Shown: positions 3,711 through 34,119 of the stretch, piece by piece
How positions within the stretch are numbered: position 1 is the first letter of the stretch
How the letters are laid out: each line of letters opens with the position of its first letter
Source: Asparagopsis taxiformis
Lineage: Eukaryota > Rhodophyta > Florideophyceae > Bonnemaisoniales > Bonnemaisoniaceae
Direction: 5' to 3'
Assembly (NCBI GenBank): GCA_030407315.1
Contig: JALQPE010000578.1
Span: 1 to 64,000, forward strand
DNA: 64,000 bases
Notes under the pieces: generated by a model
What the model saw: the letters and a program-made list of their open reading frames with translations, nothing else
Told to the model about the DNA's origin: nothing
The model's database searches: none
Position numbers and translations under genes: made by a program

Positions 3711-3757
3711 CGTCTGTGTTCTCGGAAATGGACGCGGACGTCCACAACCTCTAGTAC
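3711..3757 (+). repeat. Left terminal inverted repeat
   Basis: Starts CGTCTGTGTT and contains GGACGCGGACGTCC, then CTAGTAC. It matches the reverse complement of 23,032-23,078 at 41 of 47 positions. Homology stops sharply at 3,711. Confidence 0.75.
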
Positions 3758-3935
3758 ACCTAGTATTACTAGGCGGACGTCATGTTCTCCAGTATTTTTG
3801 GATGTCCGCCTAGAACCGGACGTCCATGCGGTCTAGTACGTCTAGTATTCCTAGGACGACATTCATTGTTTCTAGTACCACGGATGTCCCCCTCGGGATG
3901 GACTTCCGCCATGTCTAGGTCCACCTAGGACGGGC
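3758..3935. repeat. Left subterminal repeat cluster
   Basis: Several degenerate copies of GGACGTCC/GGATGTCCGC and of CTAGTATT or CTAGTAC in both orientations lie within 180 bp. Such clusters typically bind the transposase in CACTA-like elements. The same motifs recur at 22,896-23,031. Confidence 0.6.
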
Positions 3936-5339
3936 GCCGGTTCAGAAATTCAAAAATTTCGACCCCAGAAATTTCTGCCGCCGTGCTCGACTGGATGTCC
4001 GCATCCATCACGGCGACCACTCTATTTTTCCTTGTCGGTCGACTCCAATTTTGTCTTTAATTTTTTCATCCTCTCGCTCACACCCCCTTCCAGTTGGTGC
4101 TCACCTCCCCCGTACTGTACCTCAAACACCCCCAATACCACTCTAGCACGCATTTTCAGCTACCTATCCCCGCTTCCACGGTGCACACCTCCATTCCATA
4201 CCTACTTTTCTGCTCTACCGTACAGATTTCGTATAACCAGTCCTCATACTACCTCAGAATAGGGAAAAACACCCCCTATCTCCTCGACCATGCTCTCCCC
4301 CATCACCTTTGAAACGTATTGTTCTTCAATACCCTCTCTCCTCTACCCTCTACCCCTCTCCTTCGCCCTCTACACAAACTTCCCCTGCAGCTTACTCTTC
4401 CAAAACCTCTCACTCCCCATCCCGTACCCGACCTGCTCCACCCCTCCCTCCCTCAGCTGCTCCATGCCCCCACGCCATCCGCATCTTCCATACCGTATAC
4501 ACCACCACCACCGGCCCACGCTCCCGCACGCGGGGTGACACCCCCGCCGTCTCCCCAGAAACCTCCCCGCTCTGAAACACATATCAACCCCCCACTTCGC
4601 ACCCTTCCTCCCACTCCCCTCCCTCCCCAAATACAATAACCCCCTTCTTCTCCATCACATCCCCACTCACCACAGCCAGAACAGACGCCACCCCCCTCCC
4701 CCTCTTTCTCCTCACTTTCCTAAAACCCCCTCCTCTCGGCGCCTTCAACCGCACCCTCCTACGGTCCCACCTAAACACCTCCTCCGCCCTCACTACCCCA
4801 ACACCCCGCAGCGTCTCCCCAATCCCCATAATATGCTTGTCGGCACTCCTCTCCGAATCACACTCCATTCTAAACCCGCACTCCGTACATTTCCACCTCC
4901 CCCTGTACCATCCCGAGATTGCATCCCTCCACAGAACACATCCTCATACCACAGAACAATTTTCTTCCTCTCATACCTCATCCTTAAAACCTCCATCTGC
5001 TCCATGTAAATTTCGATGTAAATATTTTCTCTACTATGCAATCTCAAACATGTATGAACGTATGCCTTTCCGCTTTGTCACCCTTGAATATTGGTACTCA
5101 TGTATTCATAAAATAGGGCCACCCACATCCCTATCCCGTTCTGCAAGCTTTACAAACCACTAGACGCATACTCCACAACTATACAACAAACACTACTCGC
5201 TATTTCAGACGACGCGGTACACAAGTAGCGTAGTCTCAACCATCCGTGCAGCCTTCCCTGATGCGTACAAGTGCGAAACACGTCTAGACTACTACTACTA
5301 CGATATAGTATATCAGAAGTGACTGCGGGAATTTTCGGC
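3936..5339. other. G-depleted left arm of the large element
   Basis: From about 4,040 to 5,000 the plus strand is dominated by C, T and A with very few G, partly as long CCTCT/CCCTCTAC-like tracts. Minus-strand frames (4,370-4,636, 4,584-4,868, 4,793-5,047) are open but consist mainly of G-rich-codon residues and match nothing. They could be exons of an outward-reading transcript or only a by-product of composition. No RNA gene seen. Confidence 0.45.
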
Positions 5340-5370
5340 ACAGGAGATGCTGGGCCACCAAATTGATTTT

Positions 5371-5915
5371 TCGGAAATTTTAGAATTTCTGGGCTGGCCA
5401 GCAGTGCAATCGAGCTGGACATCCACCGGACGTCCATTTCAGGTTGGTCGTGAGAGAGTGGGGCGGGACCATGATGAAACAAGGACCAAGACCTGTCCCT
5501 GGCGTATTGAGCCTGAAATCGACCCGTCGTGAGACGCGATTTTGGCTTACAGTTGGTGCTTATAGAAGCCAGTGATAGCCCCGATCGGGGCGGCGGCCGG
5601 TTCGGCTTACAGTTGGTGCTTACAAAGCCAGTGATAGCCCCCGATCGGGGCGGCGGCTCCGGTTCCTGGGGCCGTGGTGGCCAAATTAGACACCCTGATT
5701 TGAATTAAAATTTGGGATATTCTCAAAAACATGCACATGTGAACATGTTTTTGAGATGGGGGTGTGCCGTACGGCACAATCGACCGCCCAAATCGATGTT
5801 TTTGCAATATTTTTTTGTGCCCGAAATTGTAGAATTTCTGGGCTGGCCAGCAATGCATCTGAGCTGGACATCCACCGGACGTCCATTTCAGGTTGATCGT
5901 GTATCGTGCACGTCC
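5371..5915 (+). repeat. Internal direct repeat block, copy 1
   Basis: Contains a partial 3' half of the palindromic repeat (5,371-5,465), a linker of about 220 bp and a fuller copy (about 5,687-5,905). The same order recurs at about 10,600-11,033, so the oxygenase gene lies between two direct copies. The linker holds a tandem duplication of about 60 bp (5,546-5,604 and 5,605-5,665). Within the full copy are a 12-bp-arm inverted repeat starting CTCAAAAACATG (near 5,720) and the perfect palindrome GTGCCGTACGGCAC at 5,764-5,777. Confidence 0.8.
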
Positions 5916-6203
5916 ACACATTACCGGAAGCAAGTAGGCGATGAAGCACGTACAAACCCAATTGTTCTGCTATTTCTACCATAGACCATCGAGTCTAGAG
6001 ATGTGAGGGAATCGTCCTGGAAATCATGCTCCAACCCACGAGGGAATGGACAATCTAGTTTGAAAGCATGGAACGGAAGTACATTATACTAGGTTCATAG
6101 ATTGAAAGTGATAAAGGAGATGATTATATTCTCGATAATTGTTTACCAAAGTAGTAGTTGTTAAGCTATCTAGCCGTCGGAAAATTGTTCTTCGTCTTCG
6201 TCC

Positions 6204-9200
6204 TCATCTATATTCAGGATCTCCCGGCAGAATAGGCGTTATCGGCAACTGTGGAGTTGATCTGCTCAAGATGAATTCTTGACCCGGTGTGAGGGTTCTC
6301 TTCTTGGGAGCTTCTGTCGTCTTCATCCGCATGATTCCGAGCTGCCCTGTCTTCGGCCTACGATCTTTCTTGACCGGGATGGGAACAACTGTCTTGTGGC
6401 GAACATTGACAGGTGCCGGTTGACTTTGCCTGGCAGACCGGCGCGGAGCATTGGCGATTACTTCTTCTTCGAATCCCAACCGCCTGATGAAACCAAACGA
6501 AACATTGTCGGGAATCGGATACGACGCATTCCTGAAATACGTGTGATACCTCGTTGTCGTGTGTGACACAACTCTGTCGACATGCCCTGCCCCGGCATGT
6601 TGTACATGGCCGTGACCGATGAAGACTGAACGTGGCGGAACGATTACCTTCTTCAGCTTCATCGTCTTGGCGTACATATCTAATTCCAGCGCTTTGGAAA
6701 AGACGTACTTGTGGGACCCTGGACACACCCAGATAGGGAATGGGTCATCTCCGTTGGCAATAACAAAGTAACCCGGAAGTTGATCTTTGCGGTCGCGAGG
6801 AGGAACAGGGAAATCATTGTGTGGGACCTGCCGAGGACACCCCTTTCCCGTTATCAAAAACCGTCCCCCAGATGCCGGCATGACAAGTTTTTCTCCCGGT
6901 AAACCGCACTCCTCCAGCCCTATCAGCCGGACAAGGATTCCCAACCACACATCCAGCAGGGCTCGCCGCGTCACAAACTTGAACCGGTCGATATGCGTCT
7001 CATCGTTCTCGGCATAGTCAACCAGGCAGTGGCGCGTAGACGTGAAGCGAGCCCTCCCCTCATTCCGGTTCTTCTCATCTGTTTCATCGTCCCCCGTATT
7101 GACAATGGGACTCCACAGCTGCCGGTTCCCAGGGTCCTTGTGCACCTCCTCCCCCTCCCATGTTCCCAAGAAGTACCGAAACAATTCCTGGTTAGGAATT
7201 TCTTCCATGAGACCCAAGTCAAATGGGAACTTGTCCGACGCATCGAGGTAGCTTACATCCGCGAAATTGTGCATCACCGTATACCCTCGCTCGTTGATTT
7301 CCGTTCGGCAATTGTGGAAGTACGCCATACCAGTGCCGGCCTCATACGAATCCTTCCAGCTTGTAGACATTCGCGCAACCTGGGCGAAGTCCAGCCTCGA
7401 GGGTAGAAACGTCGATGTAGGCTCACACATCGCCTTGGCAGCCATCTTCCACGCTGCGAAAAACATCGGATAGATGGTGTCGATCTCCAAAACAAGATGA
7501 CGAGCCCGATGTTGTTCCGGAATATGCAGCCCCTCAAACACAGGGTCCATCGCCACTTGCTTCAAATACCTCACCTCTCTGCCCTCCTCATCGATTTCCA
7601 CACTCTCCAATAACAACCTGAGCTCAATCGGGGGCAGACAGCCAACCCTCACCGATGCGATGACGTCCGCGGGACGCTGCGCCAGATGATGCCCTTCGGC
7701 TCGGTCTTTGACTTCGAAATCGTCAGGAAGAGATGGCATACGGTCGTCGAACAGGAGGTCGTGTTCAGAAGGAGAGTCACGAACGATGTAACCGTCTTCA
7801 TCGACTTCGACTCCTTCCGGAACAGTGAGTGTAATTGTCACTTCGCGGACCCCCTTGCTTTCGACATGGCCCTCGTCTGCACTGTTGTTTTCTTCCTCGT
7901 CCGAAGCGTTATGGACAGATTCTTGGTTGGAGGGAGTCGCACCAGCACGTTGGTTATCTTGGGGGACAATCTCAACGGCAGAATCGGGGGAACGGGCGGA
8001 GTCTTCGTCACCCTCATCACCGGAAGCAGTGGCTTGTTGTTGATCGGTGGGTTTATCAACAACGGCCTGCTCTTCTTCCCCGGCGGATTGTTGTACCACA
8101 ACCGGCTCTTCTTCCTCGAGGCGTGTGCTCCCCGTCGAGCGAAGTCGCTGTGAACGGCGGCGGATGCCATGCGAAGCAGGCTCATGTTCGACATTCCGCT
8201 GCTTCTTGTGAGTGAGTCTCACATTGGCAGCAGAAGGGCGGCGTTTGCGTCGAGCCTTAGTCTTCTTCTTCAATGTCGGATTGAAAAACTCTTTCAAGTT
8301 CGTTTCCAAATCCTGTAAACGCGTGGTTCTCCGTCGCATTCGAACCTCACTGCTCCGGTCGTCCCCTCTATACATTGCAATGGCATTGGTGAGATGCCAT
8401 TGCAACTCCTTCGGCTGCTTAACCGACCCAATTGCCATCTCTGTGCTCAGAAATGACTTGCGCATAATACTCTTTGGGCGCCCAAACGCAGCGTACAGAG
8501 AATTTGCTATTGCAGTCACGCGACGGACGTATGTATAGAAGTCGTTCACGTCAAAGCGTCCATCCGGACGTCCACCATGAGCAGGGTTCAAGTACTCCGA
8601 AAGACCACGCAAGACGAAGACAAAGTTTTCTTCCAGCAACTCGCGCACTATCTTGTGGTCCAGGTGCGTTATCCCAATCTCGTTGCGGCGCTCAGAATTG
8701 TTCAGCTCACGCAACACTTCGTCGAGAACAGGATGCTTCAGCGTTGCTATAGCCAAACGCGTCCACCGCCGGGCCGTGTTCGTTGAATTCATCATCCCCA
8801 TGAACTGCGCCTCGAACAATGTTCGGATGACATCAGACTCACGCAAGTCGCCAGCGTTTTCCACGTTATTTGCAACAGCAATCGTACGGATGAACTGCTG
8901 GATGGACGACAAGATTCGAACCAGGGAGCGCTCCGTCAGTTGCGTCCCAGTCGTATGGTTCGACTCTGCACTCTTGTGGATGATCTCATGAGGCTGAAGA
9001 TCACTGTCGTCCTTGCGGCGAAGGTAGTACACATCCAGAGGCTGAGTAACCCAGCGCAAGCGGTTTGCGTCCTGTGGCAGCTTGGTTCTGTGCATACGGG
9101 TGAGGCGCGTGAAGTCATCGGCAATGCTATGCATAGCATTGAGACGATGCAGTCCGTCGATCACGGTCACGTTCGCATTGGCATGGAATTTGCCATTCTG

Positions 9201-10127
9201 GAACAGACGCGTGTCGGCGGACAGATGCGTGTTCTGCGACCTCAGCACCGTCACAGTGATACGCGAAGAGCTCACATACCCCACAGCCAACATATTGTTG
9301 CGCAGGTCCTCCACGTGGTCTTCTTTCACATCCCGAAGGGTCACGGCCGGTTCCACTAGCTGCCTCACCAACACAGTCGCTCCTTCTCCGACGTAATCCG
9401 ACGTCACAAACTTGGGCACCGTAATTTGCGTCCCCTGCTGCTCACGAATGCTTTCCGCCACCTCCGGTTCGTCGTCCACCTCGGTTACGTCCTGCGTAGT
9501 AGCTTCGGTGACGTTGGAGCGAGCAGGGTGCTTCGTGCCTCCACTGGAGGCTCTAGCAGAGCGAGCAGGGCGCTTCGTGCCTCCCGAAACCGGGACGGAG
9601 CGTGCTGGATGCTTCGTACCCCCCGAACCAGTGATTTCGCCTGCCGGACCGGTACTGGGCATCCGTCCCGAGCTGGCCTGGTTCGTCGCTGCGTTGAAGT
9701 TTGACGCTGCAGCAGGGGTACGAATGTCGCTAGGGCCATCCTCCGCAGCGGGGCGCATCATCCGAGTATCCCAAGGGTAAAACGCCGCGGCGTATGCTCC
9801 ACCCATCGTCTCCGGCGGTCCCTCGGCGCCATCAAACATGTACGGGAACGGGAGGTCCTTGAACTTGTCCTTAGTCGCAATGTTGCGCACGACGATATAG
9901 TCCGCCTCGTCGGTTTCCGGCAGCTTGTGGTTGTGCAGCGTGCGCGGAAGGCCAACATCGCCACCAGCAGTGCTCACCGAAGCCGTCCCAATATGCACAG
10001 CCGCACCGTCCACGTCCGCAAACAAGTCGACATCGACGCCGCGCTTGAGTCCGCGCGACTCCGCTGACGCGCTCACTTGATCGCCGCAAACCGTTGAAAA
10101 CAAACTGCTGAAATGCGTATCCGCCAT
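6204..10127 (-). CDS. ParB/Srx-like domain fused to 2-oxoglutarate/Fe(II) oxygenase
   Basis: Intact frame of 1,307 residues from ATG 10,127, which has an AACCATGG context. The frame stays open 59 codons upstream, but the residues there look non-coding. Residues 1-245 are low complexity with three TKHPARS/TKRPARS repeats (about 171-204). Residues 260-345 form a ParB/sulfiredoxin-like domain with the signature IDGLHRLNAM at 323-332. An alpha-helical region follows to about 600, then a basic and acidic linker (600-760). Residues 850-1,215 resemble a phytanoyl-CoA/2OG oxygenase. They show H1103-x-D1105 for iron, PGSH at 1,136-1,139, distal H1177 in HAG, and R1193 in RYHTYF for 2-oxoglutarate. Family knowledge predicts an oxidised substrate, but whether that is DNA, protein or a small molecule is not visible. 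It is divergently transcribed from the methyltransferase-SET gene. No interrupting stop is seen. Confidence 0.8.
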   Translation of the reverse strand: MADTHFSSLFSTVCGDQVSASAESRGLKRGVDVDLFADVDGAAVHIGTASVSTAGGDVGLPRTLHNHKLPETDEADYIVVRNIATKDKFKDLPFPYMFDGAEGPPETMGGAYAAAFYPWDTRMMRPAAEDGPSDIRTPAAASNFNAATNQASSGRMPSTGPAGEITGSGGTKHPARSVPVSGGTKRPARSARASSGGTKHPARSNVTEATTQDVTEVDDEPEVAESIREQQGTQITVPKFVTSDYVGEGATVLVRQLVEPAVTLRDVKEDHVEDLRNNMLAVGYVSSSRITVTVLRSQNTHLSADTRLFQNGKFHANANVTVIDGLHRLNAMHSIADDFTRLTRMHRTKLPQDANRLRWVTQPLDVYYLRRKDDSDLQPHEIIHKSAESNHTTGTQLTERSLVRILSSIQQFIRTIAVANNVENAGDLRESDVIRTLFEAQFMGMMNSTNTARRWTRLAIATLKHPVLDEVLRELNNSERRNEIGITHLDHKIVRELLEENFVFVLRGLSEYLNPAHGGRPDGRFDVNDFYTYVRRVTAIANSLYAAFGRPKSIMRKSFLSTEMAIGSVKQPKELQWHLTNAIAMYRGDDRSSEVRMRRRTTRLQDLETNLKEFFNPTLKKKTKARRKRRPSAANVRLTHKKQRNVEHEPASHGIRRRSQRLRSTGSTRLEEEEPVVVQQSAGEEEQAVVDKPTDQQQATASGDEGDEDSARSPDSAVEIVPQDNQRAGATPSNQESVHNASDEEENNSADEGHVESKGVREVTITLTVPEGVEVDEDGYIVRDSPSEHDLLFDDRMPSLPDDFEVKDRAEGHHLAQRPADVIASVRVGCLPPIELRLLLESVEIDEEGREVRYLKQVAMDPVFEGLHIPEQHRARHLVLEIDTIYPMFFAAWKMAAKAMCEPTSTFLPSRLDFAQVARMSTSWKDSYEAGTGMAYFHNCRTEINERGYTVMHNFADVSYLDASDKFPFDLGLMEEIPNQELFRYFLGTWEGEEVHKDPGNRQLWSPIVNTGDDETDEKNRNEGRARFTSTRHCLVDYAENDETHIDRFKFVTRRALLDVWLGILVRLIGLEECGLPGEKLVMPASGGRFLITGKGCPRQVPHNDFPVPPRDRKDQLPGYFVIANGDDPFPIWVCPGSHKYVFSKALELDMYAKTMKLKKVIVPPRSVFIGHGHVQHAGAGHVDRVVSHTTTRYHTYFRNASYPIPDNVSFGFIRRLGFEEEVIANAPRRSARQSQPAPVNVRHKTVVPIPVKKDRRPKTGQLGIMRMKTTEAPKKRTLTPGQEFILSRSTPQLPITPILPGDPEYR

Positions 10128-10407
10128 GGTTGTTGAGTTGGAAAGGAAAAGAGATGGTTGACGTTGACGTATTCGAGTGATGTGGATGGTATGTTTCACG
10201 TTGAAGAATGTCGTGAACGCCAATCGCTGGAAATAATAACACAATACAACCGAAATTTTGTTAGGTACAGACCTATCGTGACCGCTGGAATGCAAGACAG
10301 GCAATCGAGATGTGAGTGTCCGTTCGGAACGGGCCCGAGTCGGGCTCTCGAAACCTGACGAGGTGGCGTGAAGCAGGCAGTGTCCTTGATGTGTAATGTG
10401 TTAAAAT

Positions 10408-10690
10408 TACAGCTGTCAAGCTAGGCGGCTTTTGGGGCGGCTGCGAGCACCCCTTTATCCGGGGAACACCCTGATTTGAGTTAAAATTTGGGCTATTCTC
10501 AAAAACATGCACATGTGAACATGTTTTTGAGATGGGGGTGTGCCGTACGGCACAATCGACCCGCCCAAATCGTTGATTTTTGCAAGATTTTTTGTGCCCG
10601 AAATTTTAGAATTTCTGGGCTGGCCAGCAGTGCAATCGAGCTGGACATCCACCGGACGTCCATTTCAGGTTGGTCGTGAGAGAGTGAGGC
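10408..10690 (+). repeat. Palindromic internal repeat, fullest copy
   Basis: Begins at a conserved ATTACAGCTGTC segment also found at the far edge of the inverted copy at 15,060. It contains GCGAGCACCCCT, the CTCAAAAACATG inverted repeat (12-bp arms), GTGCCGTACGGCAC, and ends near a CCGGACGTCCA segment that echoes the terminal repeat core GGACGTCC. It may be an internal transposase site, a MITE, or a control element. Confidence 0.75.
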
Positions 10691-10854
10691 GGGACCATGA
10701 TGGAACAAGGACCAAGACCTGTCCCTGACGTGTTGAGCCTGAAATCGACCCGTCGTTAGGCGCCATTTAGCCTTACAGTTAGTGCTTACAGAAGCCAGTG
10801 ACAACCCCACTCGGGGCGGCGGCCGGTGCCTGGGGCCGTTGTGGCCAAATTAGA

Positions 10855-11033
10855 CACCTTGATTAGAATTAAAATTTGGGCTATTCTCAAAAACATGCAC
10901 ATGTGAACATGTTTTTGAGATGGGGGTGTGCCGTACGGCACAATCGACCGCCCAAATCGATGTTTTTTGCAATATTTTTTCTGCCCGAAATTTAGAATTT
11001 CTGGGCTGGCCAGCAATGCATCTGAGCTGGACA
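10855..11033 (+). repeat. Palindromic internal repeat, 3'-shortened copy
   Basis: Matches the central part of the copies at 5,687 and 10,468 but diverges after GCTGGACATCC, so the CCGGACGTCCA end is missing. It lies about 350 bp before the methyltransferase-SET start. Confidence 0.75.
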
Positions 11034-11386
11034 TCCCCATGTCCAGTGGCCGTCCGGATGTCGCTCACCTGGTAAGCGTGATGCACCTGTGACAACCTAT
11101 GTGACTGCAGTCACAGCCGCCATGGCGGCCGTGCAGTACAACACTCAAAGACAGGGAATCACAATCTTTTTAAAATTTTTCTCTACCACGTATCCGTCAC
11201 AACTTATTACCTACACCGGTTACGGGTTTCAAGACCTTTCCAGTGCTGTGTACCCGTATACTCTGTTCCGTTCGATATCAACCAGTGTTCCTCACGAAAG
11301 AGTGCAAACGTCACGAGATACGTCGTCAAATTTGACTGTCTCGCCGAGCGGTCGCCATCCTGTACCGAATTTCCACTCATTCCATT

Positions 11387-14300
11387 ATGACGAATAAGCG
11401 CAGGCGCAACAGCAATCCGATCGTTGACGACGCAACCGTGCCAATTCTGCGCGAACCCGCTAGCCCTTGGGAGGATTCTAGTGACATGGGTACACGTCGA
11501 AACGTAGGTCGCGCCGCCCGCGAAACTACTCTCGCTGGCAAAGACTTCCTCCGCCTCTTGCTGGATTTATTCGCCCACTCAAGTTTCGCAGACTTGACGG
11601 ACAAGCCGGGAGGTTTCACATACGCGGACCTTGGCGCTTGGGTTGCGCAGGGCACGGAAGAACAATTTGCGGCGCTGCAAGGTCGACTCAGCATGGCCTT
11701 CAGCGGTCGTTCGAAGAATGCTGGAGTCGAGGCGGATGTTGCCGAAATCGTCATGGCAGAGATGAACGTTGAGCGAGCCAAGCAGATTGTTCGTCTGGCA
11801 TTACCGATTGCCGAGTTTTCAAGACAGGATGAGCGTATCGGGCAATGGGTTGAGCACTGCATCCTTTCTGGGATCGTGCCGCAGACCTTCCTTATTGGAT
11901 GTAACATGCTTCCTTCGCCACTACAGGCGCCGCAGCGCGGGGAACCAAGCGCCTTCGTTCTTGCTCCACCGGAAACGTTCGAGGTATTGATGTATTTCCA
12001 AGCGTTGTCTATCATCCGAAATCACAACAAGAACCTGCCGCGTCGCCGAATAGGCGACGCGGCCGAAGAGGGGAACGAAGCCGCACGCGTCCCAGCCCAT
12101 CGGAAAAGCACTAATCGAGCTTGTTACGTGGTTCAAGTTTTATACCATGCTTGGACCGATGTGGCCTTCGCCGCAAAGTTTTCCAGCTTCGAAGAGTTGA
12201 TGGCGCCGTACATCATTTTCGACAGCAGTGAGCATTGGTTTGACGTGCTCGATGAAGGTCTATTCGCACCGATGGAGCAGAAGCTAGATCTCTACCACGA
12301 CAAAGCTCCCCTATCTCATCCTGATGGATATGGTGGAAAAGTAGAGACAAGAACCAGTGCGCAGCACAGTGCATTTAGGGACCTTGTGAGGAAGTTCTTC
12401 GACCGGTTGCAGTTTCTTATCGTCAACCCGGACCTGTACACCTGGCCGGAGTCCGACCGCTGGGGGGCGCTGGAAATATACTTGTCAAGCGGAAATCCGG
12501 ACAAGCTGCCAGCGTACTTTGACACCCTCGACGAAGACGTTATGGCTGTCCTCCGCCCGGCACCACAAGCCGCGGACGCAGAAAAGGTCCCCAAGCCGGT
12601 TGATGACACTCCCACTCGTCGCAACACAGGAGGGAGAGGTTTGGTTCCGTCGACAAGACACACAACCAGGCTTCAACTTGGACCTGGGAGGACCAGTCTT
12701 ACTGCCCAAGGGCCGTCTCCCCCGTCACCGTCACCCCATGCGACAGAAGAGCAGGAAAGTGAAGGGCAGGCTCTCGCAAAGGACTTTCTTTCGAAAATGA
12801 GTCAGTATTGCCGGGTGTACGACGTCCCTTTCGAAGATTTGGTCAGTGCCGACGAGAGCCGAGAACACGTGCCCATCACGGGCAACGTTCAGCTCATTCT
12901 GACTGATCCGCCCTACAATGTTCGTCGTAAGAGGAACGATTCCAACTCTTCGTACGACAGGCTAACTGCAGAAGATATGCAGGCTAGCATCGAAGTGTTT
13001 GACGAGCTGTTGCGCCCCGGTGGCCACGGCATCGTGTTCTGCTCCGTTTTGCAGTTCTACGAATGGTTCCATTACTTGGAAACGTACAAAGGACCGCAGT
13101 CAGAAGGCCCAACCGATGCTGCTGCCAGTGATGACGGGTCGGATGAAGAAGAGGTTACGTCCATGAATTCGGACTCCGAAGCATCGCAGCACAGTGGCGA
13201 AGAAAGTGCGGATGAGGAGGATGACGAGGACGAGGAGGAGGAGGACGTCGTTCGGAATTCAGTTTTCTTCGTTGACGAGGTACCTCTGTTGTTTGTCCGA
13301 CTACCTGGGCACCTCTATCAAATGCCGGGGCGGAAGAGGTACCAACGCATGAACATGGCAGAGGTCGCTATCCACTTCTGGAAGCGAGGTGTTCCGTTCA
13401 AGACTGGAAGCGAGATGGTGGCCTATAGGAACCACGGATACATGGACGGCACGTACCCGGCGTGGTGCAACGTCACCATCAATATGCCCGCCATCGATTC
13501 GAATGAGATGGTGTGGCGAACAAGGAGCACAACCGGTGCTACGGTCAGAGTTCGTGCAGAGCAGAAGAGCGTCGCTCTCATGATGGAGTTGATCAGCCAG
13601 CATTCACAGCCTGGTGATATTGTTGTCGATCCATTCTCTGGCACTTTCGCAACGGGAAAAGCAGCTATGAGCTTGCCTGAGCACCGTGTTTTCGTCGGCA
13701 GTGACATGGACAAATTGTGTGTGGCACGATCGCTTCCAAAGCTGTGTGCAGTCATGTCACGTGTAATTCTTTCAAACAACACTGACATGAGGGTCACGAC
13801 AGAAGCGAAACAGAGTGCTGAGAAGTTCTTGGCGTCCCCCTCTGTCACGATGCGTACACAGAGGGAACGCAGGATCATCGAACCCCCACCTGGCCTTCCC
13901 CTGTACCAGAGGTTCCCGAAATATATTCGGCAGTACCTCTGGCAGCTGTGCCCAGAGTCGATTGCGTCGCACGAGCACATGGAAAAACCGGTACATTATT
14001 GGCCACCTTCCCTGCGCCGCTGGTTGCAAACTGAAAACCCTCGCGTGATGCGGGCACACGATTGTGTTGCGAAAAAATTGAGCGTTCGACCATCGCTGAT
14101 TAAGCATCCAAATGCAGGAAGAGGGCTCTTCGCTGAACAGACATTTAATGTTGGCGACGAAGTATGTGCATACTACGGAACTGTTGTGTACTCTGATATG
14201 AGCAAGGAGTCGATGAGGTTCGCGTACGGAGAGGGTCACATGGCGATAACGAAGGAAACATTCTTGATGTATGCCATCAAGCTGTATGCAACAGCGGAGG

Positions 14301-14590
14301 ACGACGAAAACATCGAGCATCCAATTTGGATTGTTCCGGCTCCGTTCTGTTCGGCGCAGTTCATCAACGACCCGCGGTATTTGCGAGGTGAGGACACTCC
14401 GGCGGAAGACACCAGGCGGATGGCCAACGTCGAGTTTGTCGAGAACTACAGCAGCGGTTCGACGGGGAAGAAGCTCAAGGCGAAGGACCTAGAAAATCCG
14501 AAGATCATTGTAGTACGTGCAATCCGCGATATCCGTCCGGGGCAGGAGCTCTACGTTCATTATGGGACAGCGTTTAGAGCATGGAATTAG
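11387..14590 (+). CDS. DNA amino-methyltransferase fused to SET domain
   Basis: Intact 1,067-residue frame. Residues 1-400 are largely unassigned and alpha-helical. The methyltransferase has motif IV LTDPPYN at 505-511 (catalytic DPPY). After an acidic insert rich in D and E (about 580-622) comes motif I VDPFSGTFATG at 747-757 (AdoMet loop). DPPY before DPFxG is the order of the beta class of N6-adenine/N4-cytosine DNA methyltransferases. Residues about 897-1,061 form a SET domain: GRGLFA 911-916, YYG 929-931, FINDP 992-996, NVEF 1,014-1,017 and a final YVHYG at 1,056-1,060. The usual NHSC-type motif is replaced by FINDP...NVEF, and no post-SET cysteines are seen. Joining a DNA methylase to a lysine-methyltransferase fold suggests coupled DNA and chromatin marking in the nucleus (inference). 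The specific base and lysine cannot be read. Confidence 0.85.
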   Translation: MTNKRRRNSNPIVDDATVPILREPASPWEDSSDMGTRRNVGRAARETTLAGKDFLRLLLDLFAHSSFADLTDKPGGFTYADLGAWVAQGTEEQFAALQGRLSMAFSGRSKNAGVEADVAEIVMAEMNVERAKQIVRLALPIAEFSRQDERIGQWVEHCILSGIVPQTFLIGCNMLPSPLQAPQRGEPSAFVLAPPETFEVLMYFQALSIIRNHNKNLPRRRIGDAAEEGNEAARVPAHRKSTNRACYVVQVLYHAWTDVAFAAKFSSFEELMAPYIIFDSSEHWFDVLDEGLFAPMEQKLDLYHDKAPLSHPDGYGGKVETRTSAQHSAFRDLVRKFFDRLQFLIVNPDLYTWPESDRWGALEIYLSSGNPDKLPAYFDTLDEDVMAVLRPAPQAADAEKVPKPVDDTPTRRNTGGRGLVPSTRHTTRLQLGPGRTSLTAQGPSPPSPSPHATEEQESEGQALAKDFLSKMSQYCRVYDVPFEDLVSADESREHVPITGNVQLILTDPPYNVRRKRNDSNSSYDRLTAEDMQASIEVFDELLRPGGHGIVFCSVLQFYEWFHYLETYKGPQSEGPTDAAASDDGSDEEEVTSMNSDSEASQHSGEESADEEDDEDEEEEDVVRNSVFFVDEVPLLFVRLPGHLYQMPGRKRYQRMNMAEVAIHFWKRGVPFKTGSEMVAYRNHGYMDGTYPAWCNVTINMPAIDSNEMVWRTRSTTGATVRVRAEQKSVALMMELISQHSQPGDIVVDPFSGTFATGKAAMSLPEHRVFVGSDMDKLCVARSLPKLCAVMSRVILSNNTDMRVTTEAKQSAEKFLASPSVTMRTQRERRIIEPPPGLPLYQRFPKYIRQYLWQLCPESIASHEHMEKPVHYWPPSLRRWLQTENPRVMRAHDCVAKKLSVRPSLIKHPNAGRGLFAEQTFNVGDEVCAYYGTVVYSDMSKESMRFAYGEGHMAITKETFLMYAIKLYATAEDDENIEHPIWIVPAPFCSAQFINDPRYLRGEDTPAEDTRRMANVEFVENYSSGSTGKKLKAKDLENPKIIVVRAIRDIRPGQELYVHYGTAFRAWN

Positions 14591-14810
14591 GGTCACGAAA
14601 GATGTTTTCATTTCGACTACAAATAAAGCTACGTTCCAGAGTTGAAGTATATCATATAATGCAGCATGTCCAGCCACCATTAGTCCAGGGTGAAACCTAT
14701 TGAGCAGTACTCGCCTGTCAAAAACCAATCGTTCACACTCTAGGTGCACTTCGTCCGAGCAGTGAACCTGACTGCTTGGATGCTGTTATGCGTGCAGATG
14801 CAAAATACAC
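14591..14810. promoter_or_regulatory. 3' end region with AATAAA signal
   Basis: AATAAA at 14,622-14,627 lies 32 bp after the methyltransferase-SET stop codon. It is a plausible polyadenylation signal for that gene. Confidence 0.45.
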
Positions 14811-15070
14811 GACCAAGTTGAAATGGACGCCCGGTGGATGTCCAGCTCAGTTGCATTGCTGTCCAGCCCAGAAATTCTACAATTCAGGGCAGAAAAAATA
14901 TTGCAAAAAACATCGATTTCAGCGGGTCGATTGTGCCGTACGGCACACCCCCATCTCAAAAACATGTTCACATGTGCATGTTTTTGAGAATAGCCCAAAT
15001 TTTAATTCAAATCAGGACGTCTTCCGGACATAGGGGTGCTCGCGGCCTAGCTCGACAGCTGTAATTGTAC
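14811..15070 (-). repeat. Palindromic internal repeat, inverted copy
   Basis: Reverse-complement copy of the repeat at 10,408-10,690, including the 14-bp palindrome at 14,933-14,946 and the AGCTGT edge near 15,060. It sits about 180 bp upstream of the coiled-coil gene, so every cargo gene has a copy near its 5' side. Confidence 0.75.
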
Positions 15071-15249
15071 CTCATTAAATACTGTTGATGACTGCCTACC
15101 GTATACAATCTGGGCTGTTGGCGTATTCTCCGGTACTTGACCTGACCTGAACGTTCATCGCAGACCGTTGTGGTTACCGACACTATACAGCAATCTTTTT
15201 TGTATCTCGTGCAACTCAATCGTTCCATCGCTTCCGGGAAGGCTTCATT

Positions 15250-17307: not shown

Positions 17308-17451
17308 TGTCCGAGGATTGGATTCAATCGCATATTACGTCAAACCTCGGTGCTGTAATGGATTGTGTGATTGCGCAAGGACTAATTGGCGCAGAACTTT
17401 TCGTCGTTGACCCATATGCTGGACACCTGAGTGCAAACCTGAATGTAGAAA

Positions 17452-20400
17452 TCAATGCCCCACAGTATGGGGGCATGGAGCGGCGCCATGCAGCCACTGC
17501 TGATAACAGTTTTGGCGTAATGGAGGATGGTTGAAATTAGTGCAGTAAATGTGACGTTGACTAGAAGGCTTATCATGTAGTACATTATCAATAGAGTGCT
17601 GCGATTTAGATTTATTCTTCTTCATTATCATCTGTGAACTGGTAATCAGTGTTGGTGTAGAAGCGGTTGAGATAGAAACGGTGGTCCGACCAGTGCATTT
17701 GTTTCGTAAATGGCTTGACTGGAAAGTTACTTCGTACGATGTGCACGGTGCCAGATATAGTAGATGCAGGAATGAGGACCAAGGACCACCTGCACTGTGG
17801 GATGCAGTGTCATTGCTGTCAACGGATCCGTTGTCCGGGTCCCATGTGGACCACTTTAAACAAATGCACCCAAGTGATTTTTCCACAGCGGTTTTCGGGG
17901 CAAAGCAGGTCATATACTGAACGAAAGCGAGTTCTACAGGTTGAAACAGGTTTGGAGACTGCAGGCGTACCAGTGCCAGGACGCGCCCTACCCATATGGT
18001 TCTGTAGTCATCGGCAGTTCTGGAGATGACGACAAAGGAGTACTGCGATCTCTTTGCGGGGCCGAATGATGAAGTTGCAAAGACGCGCTGCTGCTTGTGC
18101 CTCGACACGTTTGTGGGGCGAAGCATGCCACTGTGCGGGTCAAAGTCGTCAGCATATGGGACGTACCCTCATATGACGTAGGCGGACTTTACCACGGTGA
18201 CGGAAATGTCCATGTCATGTATTGGAGGGCCTTCTGCCGTGGCGCGCAGTCTAGCGAGGGTGAGGAACGCTTGTGCAGCTGTGTCACCGAGTTGCTGGAA
18301 TAGCGTTATGGTGCCAGACGGGAACGAGGAGTTGTGCAGAGGCAAAAGAGTGGCAGGATCGGGCTGTCCGTCGATATCTGCAACGAGGAGGGTTGCATCG
18401 GGCAGCAGGGAGGCAAAGTCGTGCAGTGCAACGGTGAATCCGTCGCGAACGAGTACTGCACCGTCTGTGGGCGATATCATGCGTGCGTTTCCCAATGTGT
18501 TCGATGGGGTATGACCAGTTGGAGTGGCCAAGGAGAATTCCATGTGGCGAATAGTCTCTTCCATGGCTGTGGAGCGCCTTCGAGAGGTTTTCCTATAACT
18601 CTGTTTGAACAGAAGATGCGAGTGTTAGTAGGGGCCTGCATCAATGTGTTCCAGGGCGCCATATCTCTGCAAGTCACCGGGAAGATGGTCTAGAAGATGG
18701 AACTTGAAAGTTTTGAGACCTGTGGTGTGGAATGGGCCGAGGGTGGAGAGCATTGATTGTTTGAAATAGGAAATGGAGTTCTGGAGGCTTTCGAGTTCGG
18801 CGGCAGTCCAGTGCTTGATGTGACCGCGTTTCATGACCCATGCGACGAGGTCAGAGTATTGTGTGCAGATGGAAGTGAGGGGGGCTGTCTCTACTTCGTC
18901 ACAGCATGTGTCAATGAATGCTGCGATGAAAGGGAACACCATGTCGACATGGTGATAGTCTTTGGCTGCGAGCATGCCGCGTATGCCGTCCTCCGTGAAG
19001 AGGCCGTTCAAATTGGTGCCCTTCTCATCCTTGGAGAAGTCGACATGAAGACCGGTGATGTAGTAGTCGCGATCGATAGCGGACAGAATGCTGTTTGAGC
19101 CGGCGAGGATGGCTTTTTTCACCTTCTTGAAGGTGCGAGGTGTCCCGGAACGGGAGGCAGTGGTGGTGGTGAGGTCTGGGGAGCTGAGGCGGTGGACAAT
19201 GCACTGTTTGGTGAGCTTTGAGATGCCGAGGTGGAGATTGTGCAGAGGCTCGAAGGAGAAAATGTTGTAGGGGTCTAGGGGACTGTTGATGGGTAAAAGA
19301 GCGGTCGATTCGAGGACAGAGTGTTGTTCGAGGAGGGAGAGAGCTTCGAGCGGAGCAGTTGTATGCTCCTGAGCGCTCTCCTGGCGTGCAGAGCGTGTAT
19401 CATCGAGGGAGCGGGGCTGGTGTGGCGCGGTGGATTCAAGTTGAGTGGCGTGGATGTAGCAGCGGTGGCAGGGATGTGTGGTGGTAGTGCTGTTGCGAGT
19501 GCATGAGAGCTCTTTGGCCTCTGGAAAGTCGCAGCAATAATTGGCTAGGATGGGAAAGCATTGGCGGGCAGTTGCAGTGGAGTCTGTGCAGGGGAACCCG
19601 GAAGAGAACGCGGTGGATAGGGACGAAAACACTTTTTCGAGTGCTTTATGAAGAATATCAATTTTGCGAGCGCGACTAGCAGAACTAGAGGTTGTCGGCA
19701 TTTCATCACCGAACAAGGCGTTGGACGAAGGGTTAACAATGTACGGAAGATACCCGACGATGGTGAGGCCGGTACGGATGCAGTGGCGACGGAGGGGGCG
19801 GAGAAGTTGAGCAGTGTGACGTGTATGGGGTATGCGACGATTGCGGAGCTCTTGAGGCTTGTGCTGCTCTTGTCGGAGTACACTTGGAGGAGGCCGGCAA
19901 AGGAGGAAGCGGTGGGATCATTTTCCTCTGCCCATACGACCTGTGGATCTTCCGAGAGCTGCACGCGCTGTCTAGTAACCTGGTGCAGCGTTTTCGCGAA
20001 TTCTGTGTGTAGGGGATGAGAAAATATTGCGGTGCCGTCTGGGGCGGTCTGTGGGGAGGGGTGGAAGAGAGTATTTTGGTCGTTAGCCAGTGCTAACTGC
20101 CTGCGGAGCATGTCGACTGGGTCGCGGAGGTACAGCTGTGCCGAGTACTTACCAGTTTTGTCTGGAATGATGTGGCTCTTGTAACCTTCGGTGCGGAAAT
20201 GTGTTTCGACCATGGAAGCGGTAACGTGGCGACATTCTTCTACGGTGCGAACGGCGCTGTTGAACTTTTCTAGGGAGAATGCGGGGTCTTGTAGGATGGT
20301 GATGACTTCGCTCACGCGGCCAGCGCCGGCCTTGTACTCGAGGGTTGTGAGACTGGCGGCGAGGGATTGCACGAGGAGGTCTGCGCGGGAGGGGGTTGAG

Positions 20401-20648
20401 GTTGGTGGCAGTGGAGCGTCACAGGGTGAGTCGCTGGAGGAAGCACGACCAGATTCTGGGTCTGGGGAGCTGGGTTGCGGGGAATCATGGTCGCCGTTTC
20501 GAGCAGGCTCATGGGTGACGGCAGGGACACGAGCGTTGTTGAAATGTTGGGGAGAGGGGTTGAAACGGTAGCGACACGTTCGCTCATGCAGCGCGAGCGC
20601 ATAAGCATCTACGCAGTAGTAGAAGCACCCTTCATACTTGCATTCCAT
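17452..20648 (-). pseudogene. Plavaka-like transposase, three lesions
   Basis: Reading starts at ATG 20,648 with a Cys-x4-Cys...His...Cys finger (CKYEGC...LHERTC), the usual N-terminus of Plavaka proteins. The frame then shifts near 19,770, just before VGYLPYIV, where one base appears lost. It continues with DFPEAKELSC...HPCHRCY, EPLHNLHLGISK, and a FHLLDHLPGD segment. An in-frame TAA lies at 18,625-18,627 after DAGPY. The same frame resumes with an FKQSYRKTSRR segment that is typical after this point. A TGA at 18,169-18,171 interrupts again. The frame then continues to 17,452 with WVGRVLALVR and a LAFVQYM segment, matching the C-terminal part of the family. All three downstream pieces share one frame, so these are point lesions in one gene rather than introns. 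It is convergent with the coiled-coil gene. Confidence 0.75.
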
Positions 20649-21320
20649 GTCGAGTTTTGACGGAAAAGGGAGGATTGCGAGCTGAACAGGGGAGACTGTG
20701 CCGTCCAGATGCGACCAATTTTATTTTTGTGGTGCTTTCGAGACTTGGAATGTAACGTGTTCGTAGTTTTGTGGGTAGTAGTTTTGTGCTCACTCCAGCT
20801 GACATCCCAACGGTGGAATTTAACCGAGAGTTCAATCATTTCCAACTGTTACATCACATTGCGTGCTGGCAACGTGTGCATGGAAGGACGAACGACCGGC
20901 CTGGGAGATGAATTTTCAATTAATTCATTTGTAATAATAAAATTTTTTATTTCCGAACTTCGTGTAATCTGAATATGCTTTACAGCGGATATGCCACGGA
21001 TCATGTAAGGAAAGCAAATGGATTCTCATATATATCATTATATGTTTATATTCGTTGTTCTCGATCCGGATCTCATTGTTCGGGGATTCAGAGACCATGG
21101 CTTGGGCCATACTCAATCTCACTGCCGGCGATGATTTCGAGTATGCACAGCAAGACTTAAGCGGACGCAGAAAGCTGTCCGGTCGACGCCGCAGGCTCCA
21201 CTCCGCCCTCATCACCGACTGAGATTCTTTGACCGCCTTTGCTTTGTACGTGTGCGAATCTTGATCAAGATTCGCGCACGTACCTTCGTTCCATCCTCTA
21301 CCCTCGAGGGTATGCATTGA
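20649..21320. other. Non-coding region upstream of the transposase, with long palindrome
   Basis: Promoter side of the transposase pseudogene. It includes an AT-rich stretch at 20,915-20,960 and a near-perfect 38-bp palindrome at 21,246-21,283. No gene supported. Confidence 0.5.
21246..21283. repeat. 38-bp near-perfect palindrome
   Basis: Centred on TTGATCAA, with ends GTACGTG and CACGTAC. Eighteen of nineteen base pairs match, and there is no loop. It could be a dimeric protein site or a hairpin in RNA or DNA. Confidence 0.85.
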
Positions 21321-22340
21321 GGTAAGCGTGGGTTTTGAGTTTGACTATTTCCGTTGATGCGATATTTTTCATTGGAAGCCTGTTGACTCATGGTGTGTAT
21401 TGAGCGGAGGATGGAAGAGAGGTACGTGAAGTTTTGAAAGTGTGCTGCGAGGGAAGGTTGGTTTTGAGTCTGACTGTTGTAGTTGATTCCGATGTTGTGT
21501 AGATGATGCAGGAATGTTGATGACGGAAGGTAAGTTTCATTGAGTGCCAGGATGTGTTTTGCGAAGATATGGACTGCTGACTATGATTATTATTCATTGC
21601 AAGGTTTTTGGATCATGGTTTGTATTGTGTGTAGGATGGATGAGAGGTACATTTGCGAGTTCTCAGGGTATGTAGCGAGGGAAACGTTGGTTTTCAATCT
21701 GACTGTTGCGATTGATTCCGATGTTGCGTAGGTGATGGAGGAATAGTGATGACGGAAGGTAAGTCACGTTGGGCGCCCAGACCGGTTGTGCGAAGATGCG
21801 GAATGCTGGCTACTTTTCTTGGCTACACGATTACGTGATTTATGGTTTTTATTGTGTGCAGGATGGAACAGGTAAGGTAAGTGTGCGAGTTTTGAAAGTA
21901 AGCAGCGAGGGAAGGTTGGTTTTGAGTCTGACTATTTCCGTTGATGCGATATTTTTCATTGGAAGCCTATTGAGTCATGGTGTGTATTGTGTGGAGCGAA
22001 GGTAAGTGTGCGAGTTTTGAAAGTAAGCAGCGAGGGAAGGTTGGTTTTGGGTCTGACTGTTGTGGTTGATTCCGATGTTGTGTAGATGGTGCAGGAATGT
22101 TGATGACAGAAGGTAAGTTTCACTGAGCACCAAGACTTGTTTTGCGAAGATATGGACTGCTGACTTTGATTATTCATTGCAAGGTTTTTGGATCATGGTT
22201 TGTATTTTGTGTAGGATGGATGATTCACTCATCCTCTCGGAGAGGTAAGTAAGGGAGTTTCTAGGATATCTGTCGTGGTAAGCGTTGCTTTTGAATCTGA
22301 CTGTTGGGGTTGATGTTTTATATGTGATGCAGGAGTGGTG
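21321..22340 (+). repeat. Degenerate tandem array with alternating splice-site-like borders
   Basis: Units of about 215-350 bp repeat segments such as GATTCCGATGTTG (21,485, 21,714, 22,069) and a 59-bp block at 21,343 seen again at 21,930. Within the array, 10-27 bp islands similar to GATGATGCAGGAATG or GATGGATGAGAG are preceded by TGTGTAG or TGTGCAG and followed by GTAAGT or GTACAT. This is the order acceptor, micro-exon, donor on the plus strand. The array reads outward toward the right terminal repeat. It is either duplicated splice-bearing sequence or a real multi-micro-exon transcript. Confidence 0.55.
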
Positions 22341-22895
22341 AAGCAGGAACGGCAGGACTCCAGACTCCAGGAGAGTGAAGAAGGGATCTAGGAAGATGGG
22401 GAATGAAGCTGTGAGGTGTTTCTGGTATGTGTATATTTTCGGGCATAGGATAGAACTGAGAGTGGGTTTCAAGTGGTGTAAGATTTTGCTGACCATGTTC
22501 GTGTTTGATTTCTTGATGATTTAATGGGCTGGGGTGGTGTCGAGGAAAGCGGGGATGGTATTGGGAAGGAGCGGATTTTTTGTAATCTAGGTCGTGAGGG
22601 TTCTTGAATTATGTGCAAATGGTGGTGCATGGCGTTCGGATGGTAGGGAGAACGCGATAGTGAGGGAGATGGGTGATCGACGATATTCTGACAGGTATTT
22701 TGTATTCTGGCTGGATACGTATTTCCTATTCTAACCGGGTATTTATTTCCTATTCTGACCAGATATGTATTCCCTATTCTAGAGAGACGTATTGTATACG
22801 AGCAGTTTCCTAAATGACAGAATAAAATACGGTCCGATATGGGCCCTGAATTTAACATCCGCTGTAATTTCTTCCCTCCCGGTTTTCGCTGATAT
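22341..22895. repeat. Right arm with short degenerate tandem repeats
   Basis: About four degenerate units of roughly 27 bp based on TATTCTGACCGGATA and TATTTCCTATTC occupy 22,684-22,785. The rest is G-rich and C-poor on plus, with no gene. Confidence 0.5.
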
Positions 22896-23031
22896 ATTGT
22901 ATACTGGATGTCGGGTCCTAGTATTCCGCCAAACGTACTAGAGAAAGTGGACGTCCGCATCCAAAATTTTTTTATTTTTTTGGACGCGGACGTTCATTTG
23001 TTCTAGTAAATCTCGGGGCCGACTAGGACCC
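22896..23031. repeat. Right subterminal repeat cluster
   Basis: Holds CCTAGTATTCC, CGTACTAGAG (twice), GGACGTCCGCATCC and GGACGCGGACGTTC. These are the same motifs as 3,758-3,935 in mirrored orientation. Confidence 0.6.
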
Positions 23032-23078
23032 GTACTAGAGAGACTGGACGTCCGCGTCCACTTCCGAAAACACAGACG
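23032..23078 (-). repeat. Right terminal inverted repeat
   Basis: Reverse complement of 3,711-3,757 with 6 mismatches, ending CACAGACG at 23,078. Composition changes abruptly to CpG-rich DNA immediately after. Confidence 0.75.
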
Positions 23079-34028: not shown

Positions 34029-34119
34029 GTTGTAATAGCTTGCAAAACTTCCAATTTTAGCTAAAGTGTTCAAACCTTTGAGATTTTCCTTCTGTCCATC
34101 ACCCCTCCATACTGCGACA

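Follow-up and report, generated by a model that had tools for sequence, protein, structure and literature searches.

A probable giant Plavaka-clade DNA transposon with a fused methylase-SET cargo gene in the red alga Asparagopsis taxiformis

The window analysed here is a 64,000-nucleotide stretch of the Asparagopsis taxiformis genome (contig JALQPE010000578.1, assembly GCA_030407315.1), in which positions 3711 to 23078 are framed by inverted ends and hold several long reading frames. The locus raises the question of whether these genes form the cargo of a mobile unit, as the original prediction proposed, and what use such a unit might have for a DNA methylase and a SET domain. The interval very probably represents a giant Plavaka-clade DNA transposon of high copy number, and this particular copy may be recombinant. 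Judged from its sequence, the element might place marks on its DNA and its chromatin by means of a bacterial-type methylase fused to a histone-methylating domain. The features of the interval are collected in Table 1.

Table 1. Features of the element and its immediate flanks (positions in the window)
Feature	Position	Strand	Basis
Left flanking TT, candidate target duplication	3709..3710	.	Flanks of the window copy mismatch as one site
Left terminal inverted repeat, starts CGTCTGTGTTCTCGGAAATGGACGCGG	3711..3757	+	41/47 against right end; boundary in 7/7 other copies
Left subterminal region, repeated GGACGTCC / CTAGTA	3711..4110	+	Motif density, repeats
C-skewed segment adjoining left end	4111..5610	+	Skew; also in other copies, including 10.6-11.7 kb ones
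Internal dispersed repeat, intergenic	5601..5911	+	Copy comparison
Large accessory gene, about 1308 aa from first Met	6204..10127	-	Frame open to 10400
Internal dispersed repeat, direct relative to 5601-5911	10466..11036	+	Copy comparison
N6/N4 DNA methyltransferase fused to C-terminal SET	11387..14590	+	Pfam domains; DPPYN precedes DPFSG
Internal dispersed repeat, inverted relative to other two	14734..15047	-	Copy comparison
Third accessory gene, predicted coiled-coil protein, about 685 aa	15250..17307	+	Open frame; coiled-coil matches below cut-off
Plavaka transposase gene, broken in window copy	17608..20720	-	PF18759; left limit estimated from other copy
Right subterminal region, same motifs mirrored	22679..23078	-	Motif density, repeats
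Right terminal inverted repeat	23032..23078	-	41/47 against left end; 190-bp right end elsewhere
Right flanking TT, doubtful candidate target duplication in window copy	23079..23080	.	Flank comparison

Ends, copies and target sites

The left terminal repeat and the reverse complement of the right one are identical at 41 of 47 positions, with no further length added by local alignment, and the element termini read CGTCTGTG..CACAGACG. A genome pattern search with a 34-base core of the ends returned 2,734 occurrences in the 141.5-Mb assembly and none for the reversed control, which bears out the predicted transposon-like unit with inverted ends. The 190-bp right end was scored at no fewer than 40 genome places, of 168 candidates. 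In all seven other copies fetched the left boundary falls at the base corresponding to 3711, within one base, and the flanks of these copies differ, except for two contig pairs that share one site each. Among 100 end places listed of the 2,734, 12 adjacent pairs face inward, 11 of them consisting of one left and one right end, and the ends of such copies are spaced 10-29 kb apart. Several copies with the same ends were thus found, as had been anticipated, and these 100 ends did not lie at the unrelated spacing that the original prediction had named as evidence against a unit.

The terminal regions also agree with the prediction in their mirrored composition. The motif GGACGTCC occurs twice in each terminal 400 bp, as against 0.09 times per 400 bp in the interior, and CTAGTA occurs six times on the left and four times on the right, as against 0.04 per 400 bp; these subterminal repeats are likely to be binding sites of the transposase. 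Base skew is -0.45 in a 1.5-kb stretch whose outer limit lies 400 bp in from the left end, and +0.43 in its mirror counterpart on the right, and positions 3711-5603 were recovered at 93.0-94.5% identity in seven of ten fetched genome stretches. As expected of a Plavaka DNA transposon, 11 of the 15 independent end pairs are bordered by a 2-bp target duplication (expected 1/16 each; p=6e-11). In a first set they were present at 6/6 pairs, representing five sites, and in a second at 6/10, the four pairs without a 2-bp duplication being those of C88, C67, a second C12 pair and C11.

The short target duplication that had been predicted therefore holds for copies elsewhere, but the TT/TT of the window copy cannot count as one, because the sequences on its two sides do not fit as halves of one site. 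Contig C892 matches the left flank (1-3711) at 95.9% identity and runs past the insertion point without an element; the uninterrupted 22-base left site has 150 genome occurrences with up to two mismatches (control, 0), and the right window flank is a different sequence. An empty site made by joining both flanks occurs nowhere in the genome with up to three mismatches. The window copy may thus be a recombinant or an assembly join instead of a simple insertion. It is an even call whether it is a chimera in which recombination among copies, or the assembly software, joined two differently inserted elements, with the TT/TT arising by coincidence (1 in 16). The assembly was made with Canu from PacBio reads (PMC12115072), for which 20-kb repeats of ~99% identity would be difficult. 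The gene order and spacing of the window copy nevertheless agree with those of many other copies, and the same picture would arise if the right flank had been deleted or rearranged after insertion.

Genes carried between the ends

The prediction of a Plavaka-like transposase relic was correct as to the Plavaka identity and the broken state of the gene in the window, where a 430-aa frame matches PF18759 with 62.8 bits (cut-off 26.3) and the remainder is split into other frames, one of 391 aa; its left limit in Table 1 is an estimate based on another copy, 98.7% identical, with a frame of 769 aa. In many other copies the frame spans at least 1036 aa. A genome search with PF18759 scored at least 123 places, of 1,208 candidates, at 83.3-91.4 bits, and frames of this length were present in 80 of the 123 by hand count. 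In another search at least 98 Plavaka copies were scored (of 2,576 candidates), 45 of the 98 having a frame of at least 1037 aa. Because long open transposase frames are common, the term relic does not describe the family overall.

The methylase and SET domains had been taken for a pair of genes; instead they lie in one fused protein, encoded by a single open frame of 1084 aa (11336-14590, + strand). The methylase domain matches PF01555 (N6_N4_Mtase) with 57.1 bits (cut-off 26.7) and the SET domain matches PF00856 with 29.5 bits (cut-off 22.4). The nearest solved structures to the methylase part are DpnA (E 4e-8) and CcrM, and that to the SET part is KMT5A, a weak match (E 0.001); by eye, the SET active-site residues read ND and HY, not the canonical NH...DY. 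The first 500 residues of the protein have no Pfam match, and a diverged ParB could escape detection there. Frames of at least 1075 aa were found in 64 of 140 scored genome copies of the SET protein. Prokaryote-type methylases with open frames, apparently borne by transposons, are very numerous in this genome; in one group, located within a mobile unit, the methylase is joined to SET.

The large accessory gene occupies a single open frame of 1398 aa (6204-10400, - strand). A ParB-like GLHR motif near 9150 and an oxygenase-like HxD...H...R motif at 6824-6551 were recognised by eye only, and the protein has no Pfam or NCBIfam profile match at E<=1, so that the name ParB-oxygenase was not confirmed. 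A diverged ParB could be overlooked, because PF02195, with one match in the whole genome, does not detect the GLHR-type motif of this gene. Single-sequence structure prediction gave a pLDDT of 31 for the oxygenase-like part and 34 for the ParB-like part. Of 4,369 candidate copies at least 36 were scored; all of these reach 99% identity or more and have frames of 1364-1417 aa, with stops in two and none in the other 34. The third gene (open frame 15151-17307, + strand, 718 aa) gave only weak coiled-coil matches, below the Pfam cut-off. Its region is 99.0% identical in contig C52, where the reading differs near both protein ends; the claim of three intact cargo genes thus stands for three single open frames in the window, with this reservation for the third.

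The predicted placement of the cargo inside the ends was supported by its arrangement elsewhere. Contig C52 holds a 20,044-bp copy with TA/TA flanks, in which the SET gene (1084-aa frame), the large accessory gene, the third gene and Plavaka all lie between the ends. It is 98.7% identical to the window in the large accessory gene and 99.0% from the third gene through Plavaka, and in this copy too the frames of Plavaka and of the large accessory gene are broken. On contig C123 the large accessory gene follows each of two left ends, at 98.7-99.1% identity. SET and Plavaka are convergent and 4,509-4,524 bp apart in 19 of 20 shared contigs (about 4,511 bp in the window). Measured to the Pfam match, the convergent spacing is 5,090-5,110 bp in 25 of 41 shared contigs and 5,287 bp in one; the other 15 have no convergent arrangement, SET lying on the same strand 9.7-10.0 kb off in nine of them. 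Twelve of 15 Plavaka-bearing contigs (up to C102, among the end matches listed) have a correctly oriented right end at a distance of 3.8-4.8 kb from Plavaka. The large accessory gene and Plavaka are far apart in two of the six contigs with both (C1833 and C2426; best 98 of 2,576 Plavaka matches). The cargo travels with Plavaka-clade element ends, and the interval is read as a giant transposon on the strength of the end-core count, the inward end pairs, the 2-bp duplications, the content of C52 and the fixed SET-Plavaka spacing. A host chromosomal block was rejected, because ends and cargo turn up at unrelated sites.

Possible function of the cargo

The Plavaka transposase would bind the ends and the subterminal motifs and move the element by cut and paste, and it may also mobilise shorter copies in trans. 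The methyltransferase-SET protein could place N6-methyladenine or N4-methylcytosine on element DNA and methylate a histone or another protein on the same chromatin, while the second large protein might bind or edit the modified DNA; in this way the element would regulate or shield its own transposition. We offer only tentatively the proposal that a transposon family of roughly a thousand copies may use one fused enzyme to write on its chromatin both a prokaryote-type base mark of this kind and a methyl mark on protein, with a companion protein binding or editing the mark, as a self-contained epigenetic system over a sizeable part of the genome.

The cargo genes may instead be passengers without a role in transposition, amplified merely by their position between active ends, as in captured-gene elements; we regard this as possible but somewhat doubtful. 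Shorter copies (10-12 kb) with these ends are frequent, making up six of the 12 inward-facing pairs among the end matches listed, and neither of the two such copies with frames listed (C1583 and C468) contains a 200-aa frame in its central part. Parts of the cargo also evolve at a dN/dS of about 1, on few changes between very similar copies (nine in the methylase N-part, 13 in the third gene). The large accessory gene gave 0.67 against C123 (p=0.20) and 0.39 against C52 (p=0.004), and selection on the cargo is barely testable because the copies are too young and too similar. It speaks against mere passengers that the same cargo is retained with open frames across many copies, and that methylases, SET proteins and oxygenases recur as cargo of unrelated transposons (PMC12730594, PMC12477816). 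It is highly improbable that we are dealing with an endogenous virus or a virus-like element, even though the unit is large and carries a prokaryote-like methylase and Plavaka giant repeats occur beside viral insertions in Amoebidium (PMC11244446). No capsid, polymerase or packaging family was present among the eight frames scanned, the transposase and 2-bp target duplications are hallmarks of a transposon, and a viral contig collection had no match to six exact peptide words from each of two cargo proteins, a weak test; on the absence of viral families from the scanned frames and the transposon hallmarks, the viral reading was rejected.

For the proposed marking of the element by its own enzyme, the status of N6-methyladenine and N4-methylcytosine as genuine eukaryotic DNA marks is disputed. 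The PacBio reads of the sequenced strain are deposited as PRJNA809757 (PMC12115072) and, if their kinetic data were kept, would allow a direct look for the mark. Its presence would mean that a transposon brings its own DNA-plus-protein methylation machinery; its absence would argue that the methylase-SET cargo is carried without a marking use.

Comparison with known systems

In 2025 Petroll et al. reportedly described giant DNA transposons of the Plavaka/EnSpm type, with accessory genes and high copy number, from the red alga Bostrychia; these would share with the present element a red algal host, giant size, a CMC-type transposase and several accessory genes. The study is cited in PMC12477816, PMC13062707 and PMC13182070. 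According to a 2025 Ectocarpus paper, both giant EnSpm elements with accessory genes and proteins combining ParB with an N4/N6-methyltransferase are known from red algae (PMC12477816). The original statement that such a unit was not described can thus hold only for the exact cargo combination, in which alone novelty can lie. The 21.5-kb Ectocarpus DNA transposon Sola1-1_Ec32 encodes a 1104-aa accessory protein with ParB-like and N4/N6 methyltransferase parts, on the strand opposite its transposase as in Asparagopsis (PMC12477816); it has a Sola-1 transposase, whereas in the Asparagopsis unit the transposase is Plavaka, SET is joined to the methylase, and a different protein contains the ParB-like motif.

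Fungal Plavaka elements resemble the Asparagopsis unit in transposase family, 2-bp target duplications and base-modifying cargo (Kojima 2025, PMC12730594). The Asparagopsis termini fit neither PlavakaA (5'-TGT..ACA-3') nor PlavakaB (5'-CATCA..TGATG-3') as given there, and the cargo of fungal TET+ Plavaka is a TET/JBP dioxygenase, in contrast to the methylase-SET protein. The Plavaka giant repeats of Amoebidium form tandem clusters in which many genes are tyrosine recombinases, whose sole other matches are stated to include red algae and dinoflagellates (PMC11244446); no tyrosine recombinase family was present among the eight Asparagopsis frames scanned. Transposon-borne SET methyltransferases are also found in the HarbingerS and MuDR elements of Phytophthora (cited in the introduction of PMC12730594), which belong to other transposase families than Plavaka and for which that passage mentions no DNA-methylase fusion. 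Bdelloid N4CMT is a host gene that helps to silence transposons, with a chromodomain fusion and SET on a separate protein, and it shares with the Asparagopsis protein a prokaryote-type permuted N6_N4 methyltransferase in a eukaryote, fusion to a chromatin domain and a link to a SET protein (PMC8885841).

Ends and target duplications

Taken alone, the assignment of the window unit to a transposon family is held with great confidence; across the family, common ends, target duplications, a recurring gene order and open transposase frames are observed. The inverted ends of the original prediction align at 41 of 47 positions with no extension beyond, and the mirrored subterminal motifs and mirrored base skew were both seen as described. 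In the 141.5-Mb assembly searched (3,156 contigs, the window being part of C578), the left 190 bp of the unit gave 40 scored places among 463 candidates, and the right 190 bp gave 40 among 168. The boundary at base 3711 is common, within one base, to all seven other left ends fetched, the flanks of which differ except in two contig pairs, each at one common site. A 34-base end pattern (up to two mismatches) occurs genome-wide 1,352 times forward and 1,382 times reverse (control 0), for an upper estimate of ~1,370 elements if every end were paired. The 100 end places listed include 12 adjacent inward-facing pairs, of which 11 comprise one left and one right end, six measuring 10.0-12.0 kb and the others 15.6, 20.0, 20.8, 27.2 and 29.1 kb; the predicted multiple copies with the same ends are thus present. 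At C11:21781-21880, an element end abuts sequence equal to window ~11868-11887, within the methylase-SET gene, a hint that family members insert into one another.

A short target duplication had also been anticipated. Both ends were present in six of ten 20-kb stretches fetched (the right end was not seen in the other four stretches), and the 2-bp flanks are identical in all six end pairs (TA, AT, AT, AT, AG and TT), two of which occupy the same site. Identical 2-bp flanks were found at six of ten further pairs (C52 TA, C12 AA, C14 TG, C49 GA, C90 TT and C20 AT) and were absent at C88, C67, a second C12 pair and C11. The expected duplication is therefore seen at 11 of 15 independent sites (p=6e-11 against a 1/16 expectation), a count that leaves out the window copy's own TT/TT.

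The left flank of the window copy (1-3711) is a repeat, 95.9% identical over 3.7 kb to contig C892, which runs on past the insertion point, and the uninterrupted 22-base insertion site occurs 150 times in the genome at up to two mismatches (control 0). Frames are present in window 1-3710, three of which gave no convincing match in a Pfam scan. The right flank is not the continuation of this repeat, and the two flanks joined have no genome occurrence at up to three mismatches. Because the flanks do not continue, the window copy arose by recombination, was rearranged on the right, or was joined by the assembler; the reality of the transposon family is independent of this copy.

Features of the window
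Feature	Position	Strand	Remark
Left inverted end	3711-3757		47 bp
Large accessory gene	6204-10400	-	1398-aa frame
Methylase-SET gene	11336-14590	+	1084-aa frame
Third gene	15151-17307	+	718-aa frame
Plavaka transposase	17608..20720	-	broken
Right inverted end	23032-23078		47 bp
G+C-rich block	23562-25961	-	directly right of unit; two long frames, no convincing match in Pfam scan; perhaps part of another mobile element
Ty1/copia-type retrotransposon look-alike frames	34039-38827		gag, integrase, reverse transcriptase by eye

Cargo genes and their association with the ends

The three long cargo frames and broken Plavaka frames proposed originally are all present in the window. Of the proposed methylase-SET pair, both domains score above Pfam cut-offs, but they reside within one frame. 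The N6_N4 methyltransferase has the permuted motif order (DPPYN before DPFSG), with DpnA (E 4e-8) and CcrM as nearest solved structures, and the SET domain is C-terminal, with KMT5A as its nearest, weak match (E 0.001). The ParB-oxygenase label of the large accessory protein is a reading by eye of GLHR-type and HxD...H...R motifs and is putative; the whole frame had no match in Pfam, NCBIfam or PDB sequences at E<=1 or, as a whole protein, in PHROGs at E<=10, and its ParB-like and oxygenase-like pieces had chance-level matches only.

A second cargo-bearing copy, C52, spans 20,044 bp between TA/TA flanks and contains SET in a 1084-aa frame. Over the fetched parts it is 98.7% identical to the window in the large accessory gene, which has a frameshift near its C-terminus, and 99.0% from the third gene, read differently near both ends, through Plavaka, which is split over 629- and 327-aa frames. 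On contig C123, a copy of the large accessory gene (98.7-99.1% identity) follows each of two left ends; one copy is open over 1340 aa and the other is split.

When 98 Plavaka rows were compared with 140 of 150 SET rows (the ten best, other-type SET proteins, being dropped), the two genes converged at 4,509-4,524 bp in 19 of 20 common contigs, versus ~4,511 bp in the window. With 111 of 123 Plavaka family-search rows (the last 12, partial matches, being dropped), convergence at 5,090-5,287 bp was found in 26 of 41 common contigs, while in nine SET lies on the same strand at a distance of 9.7-10.0 kb and six show neither arrangement; the two Plavaka lists overlap partly, with C192, C366 and C519 in the results of both. 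The same-strand contigs (C358, C436, C480, C495, C503, C110, C135, C138 and C213), seven of which have a 1154-aa frame, could reflect inversion of the methylase-SET segment between the mutually inverted internal repeats at ~10.5-11.0 kb and ~14.7-15.0 kb.

A correctly oriented right end lies 3.8-4.8 kb from Plavaka in 12 of 15 Plavaka-bearing contigs numbered up to C102, and is missing at that distance on C11, C21 and C69. Of 4,369 candidate places for the large accessory protein, 36 were scored; all of these show at least 99% identity, and 34 have a stop-free frame. Its gene shares six contigs with the 98-row Plavaka list, on the same strand and 12.03-13.77 kb apart in four (window, 12.42 kb) and far apart on C1833 and C2426. 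On C254, C364 and C474, read by hand, it accompanies SET and Plavaka in window order. The distance to SET is 5.69 kb there and 3.99 kb in the window, which shows that copies differ in spacing on this side.

Candidate N6_N4 methyltransferases numbered 2,605 at first look in a PF01555 search of the genome, and 150 of them were scored. Several groups are present: the largest (78 rows by hand count, E 3.8e-16, 65.6 bits) often has a 1186-aa frame, others have frames near 943 and 1106 aa, and 25 rows are of the window's type. Inspected by eye on the few contigs common to both lists, the largest group was not found between the listed ends (100 places); on C116 and C421, however, such a domain lies, by hand calculation from SET or Plavaka, where the unit's left part would be.

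State of the family

The window's own Plavaka is broken, as the term transposase relic implied, but long open frames exist elsewhere: at least 1037 aa in 45 of 98 scored rows and at least 1036 aa in 80 of 123 family-search rows (hand count). Of 140 SET-protein rows, 64 have frames of 1075 aa or more. The six end pairs from the 20-kb stretches span 10.6-11.7 kb, of which ~1.9 kb on the left and 2 kb on the right correspond to window sequence; C1583 and C468, whose frames were listed, look non-autonomous because no 200-aa frame occurs in the middle. Selection could be gauged only tentatively, the copies differing by few changes: dN/dS of the large accessory gene was 0.67 (C123, p=0.20) and 0.39 (C52, p=0.004); it was ~1 for the methylase N-part on 9 changes and the third gene on 13, and 0.11-0.44 for Plavaka on few changes, in six comparisons all containing one common copy. 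Judging by their long frames, the host genes of the window seem to contain few introns. An Asparagopsis taxiformis L6 assembly is given as 142.47 Mb in 3,308 contigs with 33.48% DNA transposons (PMC12115072).

Possible mechanism and known systems

By analogy with the Plavaka family, cut-and-paste transposition would act on the ends and subterminal motifs. The methylase-SET protein might mark DNA and a protein, and a companion might bind or edit that DNA, although we regard this self-marking reading as rather doubtful. Petroll et al. are said to have described giant Plavaka elements in Bostrychia in 2025. A methylase-SET fusion in a Plavaka element was not found in excerpts of the open-licence PubMed Central literature searched. 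According to Kojima 2025 (PMC12730594), fungal Plavaka elements have duplications of 2 or 3 bp, TGT..ACA or CATCA..TGATG termini and TET/JBP cargo; HarbingerS and MuDR elements are cited there as carriers of SET genes. A paper on Ectocarpus (PMC12477816) presents a 21.5-kb Sola1 element that encodes a ParB-methyltransferase protein. It attributes similar proteins in green and red algal transposons to Iyer et al. 2011 and Petroll et al. 2025, and for giant red algal EnSpm elements bearing accessory genes it refers to Petroll et al. 2025. Plavaka giant repeats of up to 50 kb are reported from Amoebidium (PMC11244446), and in bdelloids a methylase of bacterial type, with links to SET proteins, serves as a host system (PMC8885841).
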